This document shows positions 32,728 to 43,243 of a DNA stretch of 64,000 nt, one piece after another. This DNA comes from Gluconacetobacter azotocaptans (GTDB lineage Bacteria; Pseudomonadota; Alphaproteobacteria; Acetobacterales; Acetobacteraceae). Each line of letters begins with the position of its first letter. Within the stretch, counting starts at the first letter, position 1. A model generated the notes under the pieces. That model was not told the origin of the DNA. It saw nothing but the letters and a program-made list of their open reading frames with translations, and did not search any database. Where the stretch lies: positions 248,001-312,000 of the forward strand of contig NZ_JABEQF010000006.1 of the NCBI RefSeq assembly GCF_014174355.1, given 5' to 3'. A program made the translations under genes and the position numbers.

Positions 32728-34371
32728 TTATGGCAGGCTGTCGCCTGCGTCTGCGGCGCGCGCCCGCAACCAGGCTTCCACGGTCGCCAGTTCGTCATAT
32801 GGGCGTACTTCGTCGACGGTGATGCGTCCCTCGTAGATGCAGCCGCTTTCTCCATCGAGCGTGATGTCCGCCCCGCTGTCGAAACGCCTGCCTGCGATCA
32901 GGCAGCTTTTCCTGTCGGGCGCCACCGCAAGATCGGCGCATCCGACAATGGCGACCTTGCCGAGTTCGCGCGCCACGACCGCGGCGTGGCTGGTACGGCC
33001 GCCATGCGCCGCAAGCAGTCCCTCGGCACTGGCGATCCCTTCGATGTCCTCGGTCAGGACGTCATTGCTGACCAGGATGGCCGGCCGCCCCTGCTGGGCA
33101 AACTGTCGTGCGACGTCCGCGCTCATGGCAATGGCGCCCGTTGCGGCGCCTATCCCGGCCGGCGTGCCTTTGGCGATCGCCTGGCCATGCGCGCCCACCA
33201 CGCGCCGGCGCGTGATCGCGGTGTAATTCAAACCTTCCAACTGCCGCAGTGCCTCATCGACGCCGATCAGGCCTTCGCGCACCATGTCGACGGCGATCTT
33301 CAGGCGCGCCCACGCGGATCGTTTGCCCGCGCGGGTCTGCAGCATGAAAAGCCGCCCGTCTTCCACGGTGAATTCGAAATCCTGCATATCGTGGAATCTG
33401 TCTTCGATCTGCCTGGCGAAGTGTTCCAGGCTCTGTGCGACCTGCGGCATGATGCGGGCGAGCGTAGTGGCGGGGGTGACACGCCTGCGGCCCGAAACCA
33501 CGTCGTCGCCCTGCGCATTGAAGGAAAAATCCAGATAAAGCCGTTTCTCGCCCGTCGCCGGGTCGCGTGTAAATCCGACGCCCGATCCCGATTTCGGTCC
33601 CGAATTGCCGTAGACCATGCGCTGTACGGTCACCGCGGTGCCGGGAAGGTCGGTCAGATTCCTGATCCGCCGATAGGTCTTCGCGCGATCGGACTCCCAT
33701 GACCGGAACACCGCGTCCACCGATTGCACAAGCTGCTCCATGGGCGTGTCGGGGAAGGCACGTTCCGACATTTCTTCGAAAATATCGAGATATCGCAACG
33801 CCAGGCCGCGCAGGGACAGGGTATCGAGGTCGGACAGGGTCCCGGCCTGCCCGGCCAGCAGCGCGCTTGCCGATGCGTCCTCGAATGGCGCGGGGTCCAG
33901 GCCGTGCACGACCTGCCCGTACGAACTGACCAGTCGCGCATAGCAGTCCCAGACAAGACGGGGATCGCCCGTCTGCGCCATCATCCCCGGCAGGGTCGCG
34001 CGCGTCAGCCCGACATTCAGGACCGTGTCGAGCATGCCGGGCATCGAGATCGGGGGGCCCGAGCGGACCGCAACCAGCAATGGCCGCCGCGCGTCGCCGA
34101 ACGCCAGGCCGGTCGCCTGCTCCAGACGGCTCAGCGGGCCGGCGACGCGCGCCCGGAACTCTTCCATCGGCGGCGGGCCGTTGGCGATCCATTGGGCGCA
34201 GAGCGAAGTCGGCAGGACGAAGCCGGGTGGCACGGGCAGGCCCATCGCGGCCAGAACCACGAGGTTGAAGGCTTTCCCGCCAAGCAGGGACACCGCGCCT
34301 GCGGGGGGCGGCAGTACGCCTGCTTCGATGATCTGGATGGGGTCAGGTTGCAAACCACTCTCCCACGGCAT
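32728..34371 (-). CDS. PPDK-like protein without the PEP-binding domain
   Basis: This 547-residue protein keeps two of the three domains of pyruvate phosphate dikinase. The N-terminal ATP-grasp part has the PPDK signatures LLGGKAFNLVVLAAMGLPVPPGF, MPGMLDTVLNVGLT and MVYGNSGPKSGSGVGFTRDP. The swivelling domain has the phospho-histidine in GGRTSHAAVVAREL (about residue 462). The C-terminal PEP/pyruvate barrel is absent: a complete PPDK is near 880 residues. It could transfer a phosphoryl from ATP to the histidine but lacks the usual acceptor site. The start overlaps the preceding gene by about 29 bp (an ATG at 34395 would overlap by 53). The partner gene is thus the likely functional counterpart. 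Confidence 0.78.
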   Translation of the reverse strand: MPWESGLQPDPIQIIEAGVLPPPAGAVSLLGGKAFNLVVLAAMGLPVPPGFVLPTSLCAQWIANGPPPMEEFRARVAGPLSRLEQATGLAFGDARRPLLVAVRSGPPISMPGMLDTVLNVGLTRATLPGMMAQTGDPRLVWDCYARLVSSYGQVVHGLDPAPFEDASASALLAGQAGTLSDLDTLSLRGLALRYLDIFEEMSERAFPDTPMEQLVQSVDAVFRSWESDRAKTYRRIRNLTDLPGTAVTVQRMVYGNSGPKSGSGVGFTRDPATGEKRLYLDFSFNAQGDDVVSGRRRVTPATTLARIMPQVAQSLEHFARQIEDRFHDMQDFEFTVEDGRLFMLQTRAGKRSAWARLKIAVDMVREGLIGVDEALRQLEGLNYTAITRRRVVGAHGQAIAKGTPAGIGAATGAIAMSADVARQFAQQGRPAILVSNDVLTEDIEGIASAEGLLAAHGGRTSHAAVVARELGKVAIVGCADLAVAPDRKSCLIAGRRFDSGADITLDGESGCIYEGRITVDEVRPYDELATVEAWLRARAADAGDSLP

Positions 34372-36274
34372 GATCCGACACGAGGCGGCCCGCATTCAGC
34401 AACGCGTCCGCCACCTCCTCCAACCCGTCGGCAACGGCGGTCGTGACATGGAACACCCGGGCGTCGACATCCGCGTGCATCAGATGCGTGAACAGGTCGC
34501 GCTGGATGTCGTCCGTTGCGTGTTCATGCTCGTGCAGCCGGTCGAGAAACGCCATGAACGCGCGCATGTCCTGCCGCGCGATGGTCTGGTGTTCGTTGCG
34601 CAGCGCGCACAGCAGGCGGACATAGTCCCTGACCGCCATGATGGCGCCTTCGACCAGAAGCAGAAATCGCTCGCGCAGTTCGACCGGCAGGTCGCGGGGC
34701 AGAAATTGCAGAAGAAACGCGACCTCTTCGAATTTGTCGGCGGCATCGTCGGCCTCCGAGGCGATCATGCGCCAGGCGCGCACCTTGCCGTCGCGGGACA
34801 GGTCGCAGATGCGTCCCACCTGCCGGTCGGCAAGTGCTTCCCAGAGCTTGGCCCGCGTAGCGGCCCCACCGAGATCGGCGACATTGTCCAGCAGCGTGGC
34901 ATGCACCAGGTTGCCCAGGTCAAGGATCAGCGCGGCATGGTCCACGGCATCATCGAGAATGCGATCGGCCACGGATCCGACGCGCATCATCAATTCCGCC
35001 TGCAACAGGTCACGGATGACGAAGGGCGATCGGCCGCCGCGCAGATTTTCGCTGGCGATGCGCAATGTCTCACGCAAAAACGTCGTCGTGTCGTCCTTGC
35101 CGAGGGCGCGCTGCAGAGAGGTATAGGAGACGCCGGTGATCCGCGACACGGTTTCCAGCAGATCGTCGATCATGACCTCGCCGCCGATTTCCAGATAGGC
35201 GCGATGGCCATATTCGTGATCGGCGGCCCAGTCCAGAATGGCGACAGCTTCCCGGCGTGGGACGAAGCGGCCGAGGCTTTTCCGCGCCTTGTTCCAGTCG
35301 ATGAGAAATACGAGTGACGCGCCCAGCTCCTCCAGCGCGGCATCGAGCGTCGCCAGGTCGGGGGCGTCGAACGTTCCAACCGTGACAAGGAAAACATCGT
35401 CCTCCATGCCCTGCGCGTGCCGGTTGGAGACGGTCCACGAAAACCGGGGCAGGCGTCTTTGGAAAAAATCGAGACGTTGTTTATGAATATCGCTGTGGAT
35501 GATGTTCAGGCGGAGGTTCTCGACCTGGGCGATCAGAACATGCGCGTCAGTCGTGCCCAGATCGTTCTGGATGATCATGCGGGCGCCGTCGCGCATTGCG
35601 TTGGTGGCCAGCCCCGGGTGGTTGAACTTCAGGGGCGCCGTTCGGTTCAGCCCATGCATGAATGCGACAAGGCGGTCCCTGTCCGCCTGGTCCAGGAGGT
35701 AGGCGCGGGCGCCCGCAACGTCCGTTTCCGCCAGGCCGGCGGCGATGTCGTTGATGGCTTTGTGCATCTCCATCACCAGGCCGTGGAACGACGCCTCGTC
35801 GCTGCCTGAAAGGCGCGACAGCCGCGACACCAGGCCAGGGGTCAGGACGTCGCCGTCGAGATGAAGGGATGCGCGAAGCGCCTGCTCACGTCCGCGGAAC
35901 GTGGCTGCCGCCGCGCGGTCGAAGAGGCCTGCGGTCACGCCCGCCTCCACGGCCGCGCACATGTGCGACAGGTCGTCCAGCAGGCGCGACATCACCGCGC
36001 CGATCTGTGGCACCCGGACGCCGTCGCCGGTTCGCTCCAGCAGGGCGGGAGGATCGTAAAGCGGGTTATGGTCGAGCCCGGCCAGGGCCCGTTCGGCCCC
36101 CAGATCCGCAAAAGGCGTACGATCGTCCCGGCCGGACGATGCCTCGATGGCCTGCAGCCAGCTCAGGGCGAATTTTATGCGGGCATTCGCGGCCAGTCCG
36201 TCCGCAATCAGGTTGGGCAGAAGCAGCGCGCCCTGCGCGAGCTCGGCAACCACGGTCTCCTTCTGGATGGTCAT
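34343..36274 (-). CDS. Large protein of unknown function with PhoU-like tail
   Basis: I do not recognise a named family for the 643-residue protein. Residues 1-200 are mainly helical, 200-400 include several acidic and histidine-rich stretches, and 505-620 look like a PhoU/DUF47-type helical bundle (EADDAADKFEEVAF, then HEHEHATDDIQRDLFTHLM). A HEYGH motif (residues 353-357), of the HExxH metal-site type, is present, but its use as an enzyme site is unproved. No signal peptide or membrane segment is seen. The gene overlaps the PPDK-like gene, and the two probably act together, perhaps as phosphodonor and acceptor or regulator. Confidence 0.6.
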   Translation of the reverse strand: MTIQKETVVAELAQGALLLPNLIADGLAANARIKFALSWLQAIEASSGRDDRTPFADLGAERALAGLDHNPLYDPPALLERTGDGVRVPQIGAVMSRLLDDLSHMCAAVEAGVTAGLFDRAAAATFRGREQALRASLHLDGDVLTPGLVSRLSRLSGSDEASFHGLVMEMHKAINDIAAGLAETDVAGARAYLLDQADRDRLVAFMHGLNRTAPLKFNHPGLATNAMRDGARMIIQNDLGTTDAHVLIAQVENLRLNIIHSDIHKQRLDFFQRRLPRFSWTVSNRHAQGMEDDVFLVTVGTFDAPDLATLDAALEELGASLVFLIDWNKARKSLGRFVPRREAVAILDWAADHEYGHRAYLEIGGEVMIDDLLETVSRITGVSYTSLQRALGKDDTTTFLRETLRIASENLRGGRSPFVIRDLLQAELMMRVGSVADRILDDAVDHAALILDLGNLVHATLLDNVADLGGAATRAKLWEALADRQVGRICDLSRDGKVRAWRMIASEADDAADKFEEVAFLLQFLPRDLPVELRERFLLLVEGAIMAVRDYVRLLCALRNEHQTIARQDMRAFMAFLDRLHEHEHATDDIQRDLFTHLMHADVDARVFHVTTAVADGLEEVADALLNAGRLVSDHAVGEWFAT

Positions 36275-41725: not shown

Positions 41726-42793
41726 TCAGGGGGCGGGCAGGGCGGCATTTTCAAGCCGGTCTAGCTTCAGCGCGTCGAACAGGGCCAGACGCAGGTACGC
41801 GCGCGCCTGGCGCGGCCATTTTTCAGGCGTGCGCGGCCGGGTGTCGCACAGGTGCATGATCGCCAGCCGGGCCCGCAGCATGGCGCGATAGCTGCGATAG
41901 AACAGCGGCAACCCGCCGACATGTCGCCCATGCAGGGCGGACCGCAGATGCCGGCCGATCCTCTCGCCCGCCCAGGCCGCGCCCAGGCGCGTGCATTCGA
42001 GCTGCAGGAAGGCGATTTCGTCCAGCGGATCGAGCGCCCGCAGGGCCGGGTCGAATTCCAGGCGATCGATGATGCTCACGCGCCCGTCCAGCCAGATATG
42101 TTCCGGGCGCAGGTCCCCGTGCGCGTCGACGATGCGGCCGGCCCGCGCGCGCGCCAGGATCACCCCGAACCGCCGGTTCAGAAAGCGTGTCTGGATCCCA
42201 TCCACACGCGCCACCATTCCGCGCGGCAGATGGAAGCGGAGGTCCTGCAACACACGCCGGTTGCGTGACAGCGCCTTCCGCCACGACATCCGCAAGGCGT
42301 CCGCGGATCCCCGGACCGAAAGCGGGGACGCATGCGCGTAGAAGGACGCCAGGACGGCGGCCAGCCGGTCGAGCTGCGACGGCTGCACCGCGTGCGCCGA
42401 CAATGCCGACTGGAGAAAGCCGCCGTCGTCGAGGCGCCGCATGACGACCAGCCAGTCGACGACCCGCCCCGCCCCCCCGATGGCAAGGCCCGATGCCCCC
42501 TCGACCAGAGGGACGACGCCCAGATAGACATCCGGCGCCAGCCGGCGGTTCAGGCGGTCTTCGGCACGGCAGGCGTCGGCCCGACGATCGAGGGTGGAGA
42601 AATCCAGATAGGGAAAGCGCACCGGCTTCTTGAGCTTGTAGACGCGCGGCCCGGCCAGGAACACCCAGGACATATGCGTCTCGCGCGCGACGACCGTCTC
42701 CGAGGCGCCAGCATAGCTTTGCGGCCGGGACAGAAACCGGACCTTGCGCTCCAAGGAGACAGGCGCCCGCATGTCCAAGGCGTCGTGCGCCAT
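41726..42793 (-). CDS. Aminoglycoside-phosphotransferase-like protein (COG2187 type)
   Basis: A 355-residue kinase-like protein. The N-terminal part has the family-typical ETHMSWVFLAGPRVYKLKKP (near residue 45), and the kinase catalytic loop is seen in DAHGDLRPEHIWLDG, with IIDRLEFDP as the metal-binding segment. Related proteins are often fused to a P-loop kinase domain; this one stands alone. The start is uncertain: the open frame extends to 43054, but that part is proline-rich and not like the family, so I used the ATG at 42793. It is convergent to prs with a 2-bp gap. Confidence 0.7.
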   Translation of the reverse strand: MAHDALDMRAPVSLERKVRFLSRPQSYAGASETVVARETHMSWVFLAGPRVYKLKKPVRFPYLDFSTLDRRADACRAEDRLNRRLAPDVYLGVVPLVEGASGLAIGGAGRVVDWLVVMRRLDDGGFLQSALSAHAVQPSQLDRLAAVLASFYAHASPLSVRGSADALRMSWRKALSRNRRVLQDLRFHLPRGMVARVDGIQTRFLNRRFGVILARARAGRIVDAHGDLRPEHIWLDGRVSIIDRLEFDPALRALDPLDEIAFLQLECTRLGAAWAGERIGRHLRSALHGRHVGGLPLFYRSYRAMLRARLAIMHLCDTRPRTPEKWPRQARAYLRLALFDALKLDRLENAALPAP

Positions 42794-43243
42794 GGCGGCC
42801 GAGCGTGCCGGGGTGTGCCGGCTATCGGCCGATGCCGCCTTGCCCGGGCGTCCGCGCGGACCCGGGCTGCTGTTCCGTCCCGTCCCCTTCAGCCGGTTGC
42901 TCGGCGCCGGCAGGCGGGCGATCGGGGCCGGCGGGGTGTTCCTGTCCCGCGGGGGCATGCCCGGCCCCGCGGTCGCGCGTCGCGCGTGATGTTCTGCTGC
43001 CACTTGGTGTCGGCGGAGTTTTAAACGACATTCCACCCTCCCTTTTCCTAGCACATGGGGCGGAAAGCCGGGTCCGAAAGAAGGGTGCGGAAAAGTTCAT
43101 CGACGGCACGGATATATTTCGTGACTTTCTTGCTGTGGACTTGTTTTATGCAAAATCCGTCCCGCCATCACGTTCTCGCGCAGGCGATTGAAACGCCTGT
43201 CGGCATCCCCAGCTTCGACTGCCGTTCTGATGGGAGAGCGACG
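42794..43243. other. 450-bp gap between APH-like and small gene
   Basis: This stretch holds no gene that I can support. The first about 260 bases keep the reading frame of the APH-like gene open on the minus strand but with a low-complexity, proline- and arginine-rich translation. From about 43010 the sequence is richer in A and T and probably contains the divergent promoters of the APH-like gene and the small plus-strand gene. Confidence 0.3.

Follow-up and report, generated by a model that had tools for sequence, protein, structure and literature searches.

Here we describe a two-gene system in a 64,000-nucleotide stretch of Gluconacetobacter azotocaptans DNA (assembly GCF_014174355.1, contig NZ_JABEQF010000006.1, positions 248,001 to 312,000), hereafter called the window. 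One gene encodes a short relative of pyruvate, phosphate dikinase (PPDK), which retains the ATP-grasp and phosphohistidine swivel domains without the barrel for phosphoenolpyruvate (PEP) and pyruvate. The other gene encodes a partner protein of 643 residues. The pair is a widespread, real two-gene system. It is not explained by gene decay, nor is it a chance arrangement of one genome. To our knowledge, PPDK-type enzymes are enzymes of pyruvate and PEP. A widespread separate branch, in which the ATP and histidine domains are kept and joined to a new putative acceptor protein, would show that the dikinase module has been re-aimed. An earlier note, made from the letters of this DNA, had singled out the locus as a possible undescribed system, and we found no published description of the pair in a search of titles and the openings of abstracts, made in a collection with few subscription papers. 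The features of the locus, all on the reverse strand (-), are the following.

32728..34371 (-): PPDK-like kinase half, 547 aa; ATP-grasp and phosphohistidine swivel, no PEP/pyruvate barrel
32986..32988 (-): codon of the catalytic histidine, H470 (555-aa numbering), within TSHAAVVAR
34343..34371 (-): overlap of the partner end with the PPDK-like start, 29 bp, read from the sequence
34343..36274 (-): partner protein, 643 aa
34346..34957 (-): partner C-terminal PhoU/DUF47-like helical domain, residues about 440-643, from PF01865, Foldseek and conservation
35045..36274 (-): partner N-terminal domain, residues about 1-410, a putative new family, from the 66-row alignment

The kinase half and its pairing with the partner

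The open reading frame (ORF) of the kinase ends at 32728 and is open from the ATG at 34395 (555 aa), but it could also begin at the ATG at 34371 (MPWESGLQ..., 547 aa). We accepted the latter start, and with it the overlap of about 29 bp seen by the earlier note, because one related locus (L014) has MRWESGLQ at the same place. Pfam matched the protein to PPDK_N (PF01326, 3e-37) and to the PEP-utilizers mobile domain (PF00391, 2e-17), with no match to PEP-utilizers_C (PF02896), the PEP/pyruvate barrel. The best relative in the PDB is the PPDK 1kbl, presumably from Clostridium symbiosum, which is aligned over residues 15-526 of its 873. The Pfam matches and this alignment bear out the earlier description of a PPDK that stops before its PEP domain. 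The kinase half scored 509 bits on the PPDK equivalog model TIGR01828, below the cut-off of 843, and 417 bits on the NCBIfam short-PPDK model NF004531, which we take to cover the mycobacterial short PPDK, below the cut-off of 456. The PEP synthase models TIGR01418 and NF005057 gave 84-98 bits, and the identity to longer plasmid PPDKs is roughly 35-43%.

A profile scan of one genome per species, covering 84,980 species, returned 525 stretches with relatives of the partner; the locus counts given here use the best 80 of the 525, and labels such as L014 denote these and other loci of relatives. A short PPDK gene is the next gene after the partner on the same strand in 74 of the 77 testable loci, and the survey of adjacency suggested by the earlier note thus revealed a conserved pair. 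The three loci of the 80 that are not counted as testable (L026, L033, L065) end at a contig edge. In one of the 74 (L075), the kinase gene is in separate frames. None of the 67 measured kinase ends lies more than 38 residues past the position of window residue 542, and there is no barrel in any of them. The exceptions to the pairing are L059 and L069, both from Nitrospirillum, and L072. These loci have the partner but lack a short PPDK, and the sole PPDK match in their genomes is in a frame of 896-928 aa.

The pair is found in several proteobacterial classes, Geobacteraceae, planctomycetes, methanogens and Nitrososphaerota. Its frequency is 7 of 240 genomes in the class of the window and 4 of 397 in its phylum (own genome included in both). 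In the class of L049 from Methanoculleus, a search with the partner N-domain alone matched 43 of 199 genomes, 37 of them strongly, and in the phylum of L061 the L061 genome itself was the sole one among 250. Plasmids of Methylocella tundrae and Aquabacterium olei also bear the pair, which is in pieces in a second M. tundrae record. The annotation in two plasmid records goes no further than 'PEP/pyruvate-binding domain-containing protein' for the kinase and 'DUF47 family protein' or 'phosphate transport regulator' for the partner.

The signature motifs, described earlier as intact in the window, are kept throughout the family: all 71 pair kinase rows have H470, R111, G120, E341, Q353 and R355, while K41 is found in 70 of them, the remaining row having a gap there. 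The catalytic histidine is also found in all six truncated PPDKs without this partner and in all eight longer PPDKs. We calculated a kinase tree from 85 sequences, consisting of the 71 pair rows (the window together with 68 of the 80 loci and two loci on plasmids, after removal of alignments shorter than 440 residues), the eight longer PPDKs (from about 835 aa upwards) and the six truncated PPDKs from plasmids. The tree is a quick IQ-TREE reconstruction with SH-aLRT support and no bootstrap, in which row L106 sits on a long branch and the mycobacterial VadK is not included. The pair kinases are one group, separate from the longer PPDKs and from the partner-less truncated PPDKs; all 71 are located on one side of a branch with an SH-aLRT of 100, and the longer and truncated PPDKs on the other. 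Over 59 rows, partner and kinase distances correlate (r = 0.82), as they should if the two genes are inherited together. With PPDK itself (TIGR01828, EC 2.7.9.1), the pair kinase has the ATP-grasp (PF01326), the swivel (PF00391) and the catalytic residues in common, but it differs in lacking the barrel, in having a regular partner gene, in its separate tree group and in staying below the TIGR01828 cut-off.

A decayed PPDK fragment that overlaps an unrelated gene by chance would account for a protein shorter than full-length PPDK. This explanation is ruled out by the pairing, the reading frame and the catalytic residues, which are kept across bacteria and archaea; the mutated residues in relatives that the earlier note named as a sign of decay were not what we found.

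Like VadK (Rv1127c of Mycobacterium tuberculosis) and further truncated PPDKs, the pair kinase consists of the ATP-grasp and swivel alone, with the same truncation. The six plasmid-borne truncated PPDKs differ, since no DUF47-type partner is annotated beside them and they fall outside the pair group. On plasmid pSR-1 of Skermanella rosea (L094, 1460-4614), the last base of a pyruvate kinase gene is the first base of the gene for a short PPDK (568 aa), so that a truncated PPDK is coupled there to another type of partner. The truncated PPDKs of two Rhodococcus plasmids (L091, L106) adjoin cytochrome P450 and aldehyde and alcohol dehydrogenase genes, a setting which suggests small-molecule catabolism.

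The partner protein

We aligned 66 partner sequences, namely the window and 65 of the 80 loci, with 15 omitted to limit near-copies and fragments. The nearest relative among the loci examined is the partner from Gluconacetobacter johannae (92%). The earlier note had regarded the family of the partner as unknown and its tail as PhoU-like. The tail proved to be PhoU-like and belongs to DUF47/PhoU, leaving the N-terminal domain as the part without a match; apart from this tail, no known family of unrelated function, which the note would have taken as speaking against its idea, was found for the protein.

The C-terminal part of the window partner matches PF01865 at residues 503-627 with 32.5 bits (cut-off 24.4). 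Among the 66 members, 50 match PF01865 at E up to 0.01, and 11 of 20 members checked singly reach the cut-off. The structure 3l39 is matched with a Foldseek TM-target of 0.78 and a profile E of 2.8e-6. In the 66-row alignment, the helical bundle keeps the acidic pairs E479/D483, D513/E516 and E584/D588. Such acidic motifs bind metal in PhoU. The last 200 residues are thus akin to PhoU/DUF47 in fold and acidic motifs, but the partner carries about 430 extra N-terminal residues and reaches only 30.6 bits on TIGR00153, below the curated cut-off of 104.3.

As judged from sequence and models, the N-terminal domain is a new family for which no known family or fold matched. No Pfam or NCBIfam model matched it in the window, other members giving weak stray matches, and no PDB sequence match was obtained. 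AlphaFold modeled the whole window partner with a mean pLDDT of 88.0 and a pTM of 0.82, and the N-terminal part of the L049 partner with a pLDDT of 85.9 and a pTM of 0.84. Among the best 50 Foldseek matches listed for each of these two models there was no convincing fold: the best non-PhoU match of the window partner had an E of 0.42, and the best match overall of the L049 model an E of 0.1 at a TM of about 0.2. We considered DUF1045 for this domain and rejected it as too weak to use, because it appears in 2 of 66 members with a best E of 1.3e-4; in L030, one of the two, it covers residues 100-194 with an E of 0.0036, under the cut-off.

Sixteen residues are invariant in all 66 partner sequences: H164, H171, N175, H219, Q236, N237, D238, H245, D262, H264, R267, D326, W327, N328, R331 and H357. 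The HEYGH motif pointed out in the earlier note is present in the window but is not a conserved motif, as G356 and H357 alone are invariant, H353 occurring in 13 and E354 in 21 of the 66 members. We therefore rejected an HExxH-type metal site.

A search with the N-domain among the 199 genomes of the L049 class detected six weak relatives, four of which we aligned. They are standalone proteins of about 330 aa, none with a Pfam family at curated cut-off:

L129, 6236-7237 (-): standalone N-domain relative
L130, 3665-4666: standalone N-domain relative
L131, 6268-7257: standalone N-domain relative
L132, 6237-7226 (-): standalone N-domain relative

These four keep 0, 2, 1 and 0 of the 16 partner invariants; at 15-18% identity the individual column matches are uncertain, and the motifs are gone as a whole. 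The loss of most invariants in the standalone homologues, as an internal control, suggests that these residues have a functional role and that the fold does not depend on them. L059 and L069 retain the invariants although there is no short PPDK at these loci, so that the partner may act independently or together with a different kinase. In both loci, the partner is followed by a gene for a membrane-type protein (about 420 aa), which groups with products of genes near the pairs in L030, L053 and L086 and is probably MgtC/DUF4010.

Proposed reaction and alternatives

We tentatively propose, giving it somewhat less than an even chance, that the pair is a two-component dikinase that passes its phosphoryl group to an active site in the partner, probably for polyphosphate (polyP) or a related phosphate compound. 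The PPDK-like half would take ATP and probably inorganic phosphate (Pi), phosphorylate its own swivel histidine and yield AMP and pyrophosphate (PPi). The swivel would then deliver the phosphoryl group to a second active site in the partner N-domain and not to pyruvate. The invariant His/Asp/Asn/Arg cluster of the partner would bind metal and a phosphate-rich acceptor, and the PhoU-like domain would bind metal or phosphate, or sense it. The likeliest acceptor, or donor in the reverse direction, would be inorganic polyP or another compound from that pool. Strict pairing and the invariant polar residues make the partner the obvious candidate for the second site. For the acceptor or donor, the gene neighbourhood and the PhoU-like domain make polyP the best-supported guess; the polyP link is supported but unproven. 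We infer the autophosphorylation, the physical complex, the transfer to the partner, the identity of the acceptor and the direction of the reaction. The earlier suggestion that the phosphoryl group goes to an acceptor other than pyruvate, perhaps the partner or its ligand, is partly supported, as the invariant polar site of the partner would fit an acceptor or an acceptor-binding module.

There are precedents for the individual steps in published work. VadK, a truncated PPDK, is reported to autophosphorylate on a mapped histidine without a barrel (PMC13400623). For the two-component dikinases HpeHI, CreHI and PpsAB, one chain with the ATP site and another with the site for the second substrate are described (PMC12167813; on rifampin phosphotransferase, PMC4844700). 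Like HpeHI, CreHI and PpsAB, the pair comprises two genes, one with the ATP-grasp, and would have its second-substrate site on the partner; the relay from phosphohistidine to a separate substrate site in these enzymes is likewise what we propose for the pair. However, their swivel is on the substrate chain, whereas that of the pair is on the ATP-grasp chain, and their substrate domain is rifampin-binding-like, whereas the other subunit of the pair consists of the new domain and PhoU. Rifampin phosphotransferase was absent from the best 50 Foldseek matches listed for the two partner models and from the PDB sequence search. The pair thus appears to be a new variant among two-component dikinases, with the cut placed elsewhere and a new putative acceptor domain.

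We surveyed polyP genes near the pair by tblastn with proteins from these loci as queries, by which remote CHAD or SixA proteins were possibly missed; the matches in L051 and L056 and the Ppx match in L031 are weak. PPK1, Ppx, CHAD, PPK2 or SixA-like genes are often near the pair in methanogens, Nitrososphaerota, Geobacteraceae and Thiobacillus. CHAD domains are reported to be polyP-binding modules (PMC6537752). The arrangement is PPK1-CHAD-Ppx-partner-kinase with a SixA-like gene downstream in Methanolinea (L017), pair-Ppx-CHAD-PPK1 in Methanoculleus (L049), Ppx-CHAD-PPK1 with the pair further on in Methanoregula (L044), CHAD-Ppx-pair in Geobacteraceae (L036), Ppx-PPK1, the pair, PPK2 and CYTH in Methanolobus (L086), and a SixA-like gene, Ppx, CHAD, then Pst and PhoU (assigned by eye) and then the pair in Nitrososphaerota (L061). 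SixA-like genes lie near four loci (L017, L022, L031 and L061). Nine genes of the polyP set were checked with Pfam, and the two SixA-like ones among them belong to the histidine phosphatase family PF00300, whose members beside the pair we take to be SixA. SixA is a phosphohistidine phosphatase.

Ppx is in the flank of 10 of the 80 loci, compared with 0.4 expected from the mean rate and 0.97 from the highest single-genome rate, and 15 of the 80 have at least one match to the polyP set, L051 and L056 through weak matches alone. In the class of L049, Ppx or PPK1 lies at most 15 kb from the partner in 8 of 37 partner-bearing genomes versus at most 0.99 expected; these 37 were found with the partner N-domain and not the kinase, three of the matches being partial or split. 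PPK1 is present in 35 of these 37 and Ppx in 33; among 20 partner-free genomes, taken in listing order rather than at random, each of the two genes occurs in 12. Related genomes enter all these counts together, and many of the genomes are metagenome assemblies that are perhaps incomplete, so that the calculated probabilities exaggerate the association.

Several observations weigh against the proposed reaction with polyP. There is no polyP gene context in the window, and in all 8 alphaproteobacterial genomes checked, Ppx and PPK1 are separated from the partner by 86 kb or more or lie on different contigs. Most proteobacterial loci are without a polyP gene nearby, 65 of the 80 loci have none of the tested polyP genes in the examined flank, and loci of the same clade are not independent. 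PPK1 occurs in 22 of 30 partner-bearing genomes; these were chosen by hand instead of drawn at random, and most of the loci found to have Ppx are among them. This co-occurrence indicates that the pair is no simple PPK1 substitute. Moreover, the partner can exist without the short kinase, as in L059, L069 and L072. Finally, polyP enzymes are reported for Nitrososphaera evergladensis (PMC4084955), so that a lack of PPK1 is no rule in Nitrososphaerota; four genomes of this group (L020, L022, L058 and L061) gave no PPK1 match, and three of the four contain PPK2.

A stricter version, in which the pair is a PPDK-derived third kind of polyphosphate kinase with polyP in the place of PEP and pyruvate, seems distinctly doubtful. 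It would catalyse ATP + Pi + polyP(n) <-> AMP + PPi + polyP(n+1) via phosphohistidine. If so, ATP could be regenerated from AMP, PPi and polyP in one step, and the pair would be a candidate for the missing polyP-making enzyme in the four PPK1-less Nitrososphaerota genomes checked. Its presence in polyP clusters makes the pair a testable candidate for archaea that accumulate polyP without a recognised PPK1; PPK1 is reported for 99 of 427 archaeal species, and some species without it accumulate polyP (PMC6355812). The likeness to PPK1 and PPK2 lies in the proposed substrate and the common neighbourhoods alone. Neither the kinase half nor the partner matches PF02503 or PF03976, the PPK1/PPK2 domains, in Pfam, no domain is held in common, and the chemistry proposed for the pair, that of a dikinase forming AMP, differs.

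The same pair could be read as a regulatory system, which we consider possible but rather unlikely. A VadK-like histidine kinase would autophosphorylate as a sensor of ATP or energy and control the partner by binding or phosphorylation, and the PhoU-containing partner would tune phosphate or polyP enzymes without any small-molecule product. The PhoU-like domain and the SixA-like genes near four loci would suit such a role, and VadK is reported to autophosphorylate on His422 and to bind methylcitrate enzymes (PMC13400623). However, the pair PPDKs group apart from the six truncated PPDKs tested, and the enzyme-like invariant set of the N-domain, kept from archaea to bacteria, exceeds the need of a docking target. 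Unlikely, too, is a two-component dikinase acting on an organic small molecule, e.g., a sugar phosphate, a nucleotide or a storage-linked metabolite, the polyP neighbourhood then being a stress and storage island under common regulation. It would agree with the reported phosphorylation of phenols by HpeHI, CreHI and PpsAB (PMC12167813), with the PHB-polymerase-like, ribonucleotide reductase, prs and pfkB genes near some pairs, and with the absence of polyP neighbours from most proteobacterial pairs. Yet few non-generic neighbour families recur besides the polyP set, MgtC/DUF4010 being one among the first 25 listed, and no organic-substrate pathway stands out in the families listed, the generic ones being ABC transporters, redox enzymes and hydrolases.

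A split PPDK still making PEP, with the partner replacing the pyruvate/PEP barrel, is very improbable, even though the kinase half is nearer to PPDK than to PEP synthase on the TIGR models (509 versus 84 bits) and the short PPDK of Skermanella touches a pyruvate kinase gene. The partner shows no PEP-utilizers_C match, and no barrel protein stands out among its best 50 Foldseek matches listed. Another contig of the window genome (4.1 Mb) encodes a further PPDK homologue, in a 933-aa frame, and an intact ppsA adjoins the pair; with these two genes at hand, the short gene is not needed for PEP.

Surroundings of the pair

The CBS-BON, ppsA, pfkB and prs genes that the earlier note listed as neighbours are indeed present in the window, in divergent orientation to the pair. 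Among the loci compared, ppsA, pfkB and CBS-BON adjoin the pair only in Gluconacetobacter, and we therefore rejected them as evidence for a phosphate link. The energy or phosphate link suggested in the note thus finds no support in these genes, but it does in other lineages with PPK1, Ppx and CHAD near the pair.

PADLOC gave no match to anti-phage systems, and no RNA element or tRNA was found in the window. The scans around the pair detected no promoter-like site (0.5 expected) and two terminator-like matches (2.5 expected).

The Pfam tallies of neighbours comprise 97 of 129 and 85 of 116 ORFs, the simple ORF caller having omitted some loci. Three Nitrososphaerota loci (L020, L022, L061) have, upstream of the pair, mutually related genes (about 460 aa) that we read as PHB-polymerase-like (PhaC), which would place a second storage polymer beside the pair. 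In seven loci of betaproteobacterial type (L026, L028, L032, L033, L038, L048, L054), a gene of about 960 aa near the partner is a ribonucleotide reductase according to the Pfam tally. The prs gene and a 442-aa ORF (window 41726-43054, (-) strand), which has no Pfam or NCBIfam match, stand side by side in Gluconacetobacter and also on the Methylocella plasmid (L008), where both are at most 10 kb from the pair.

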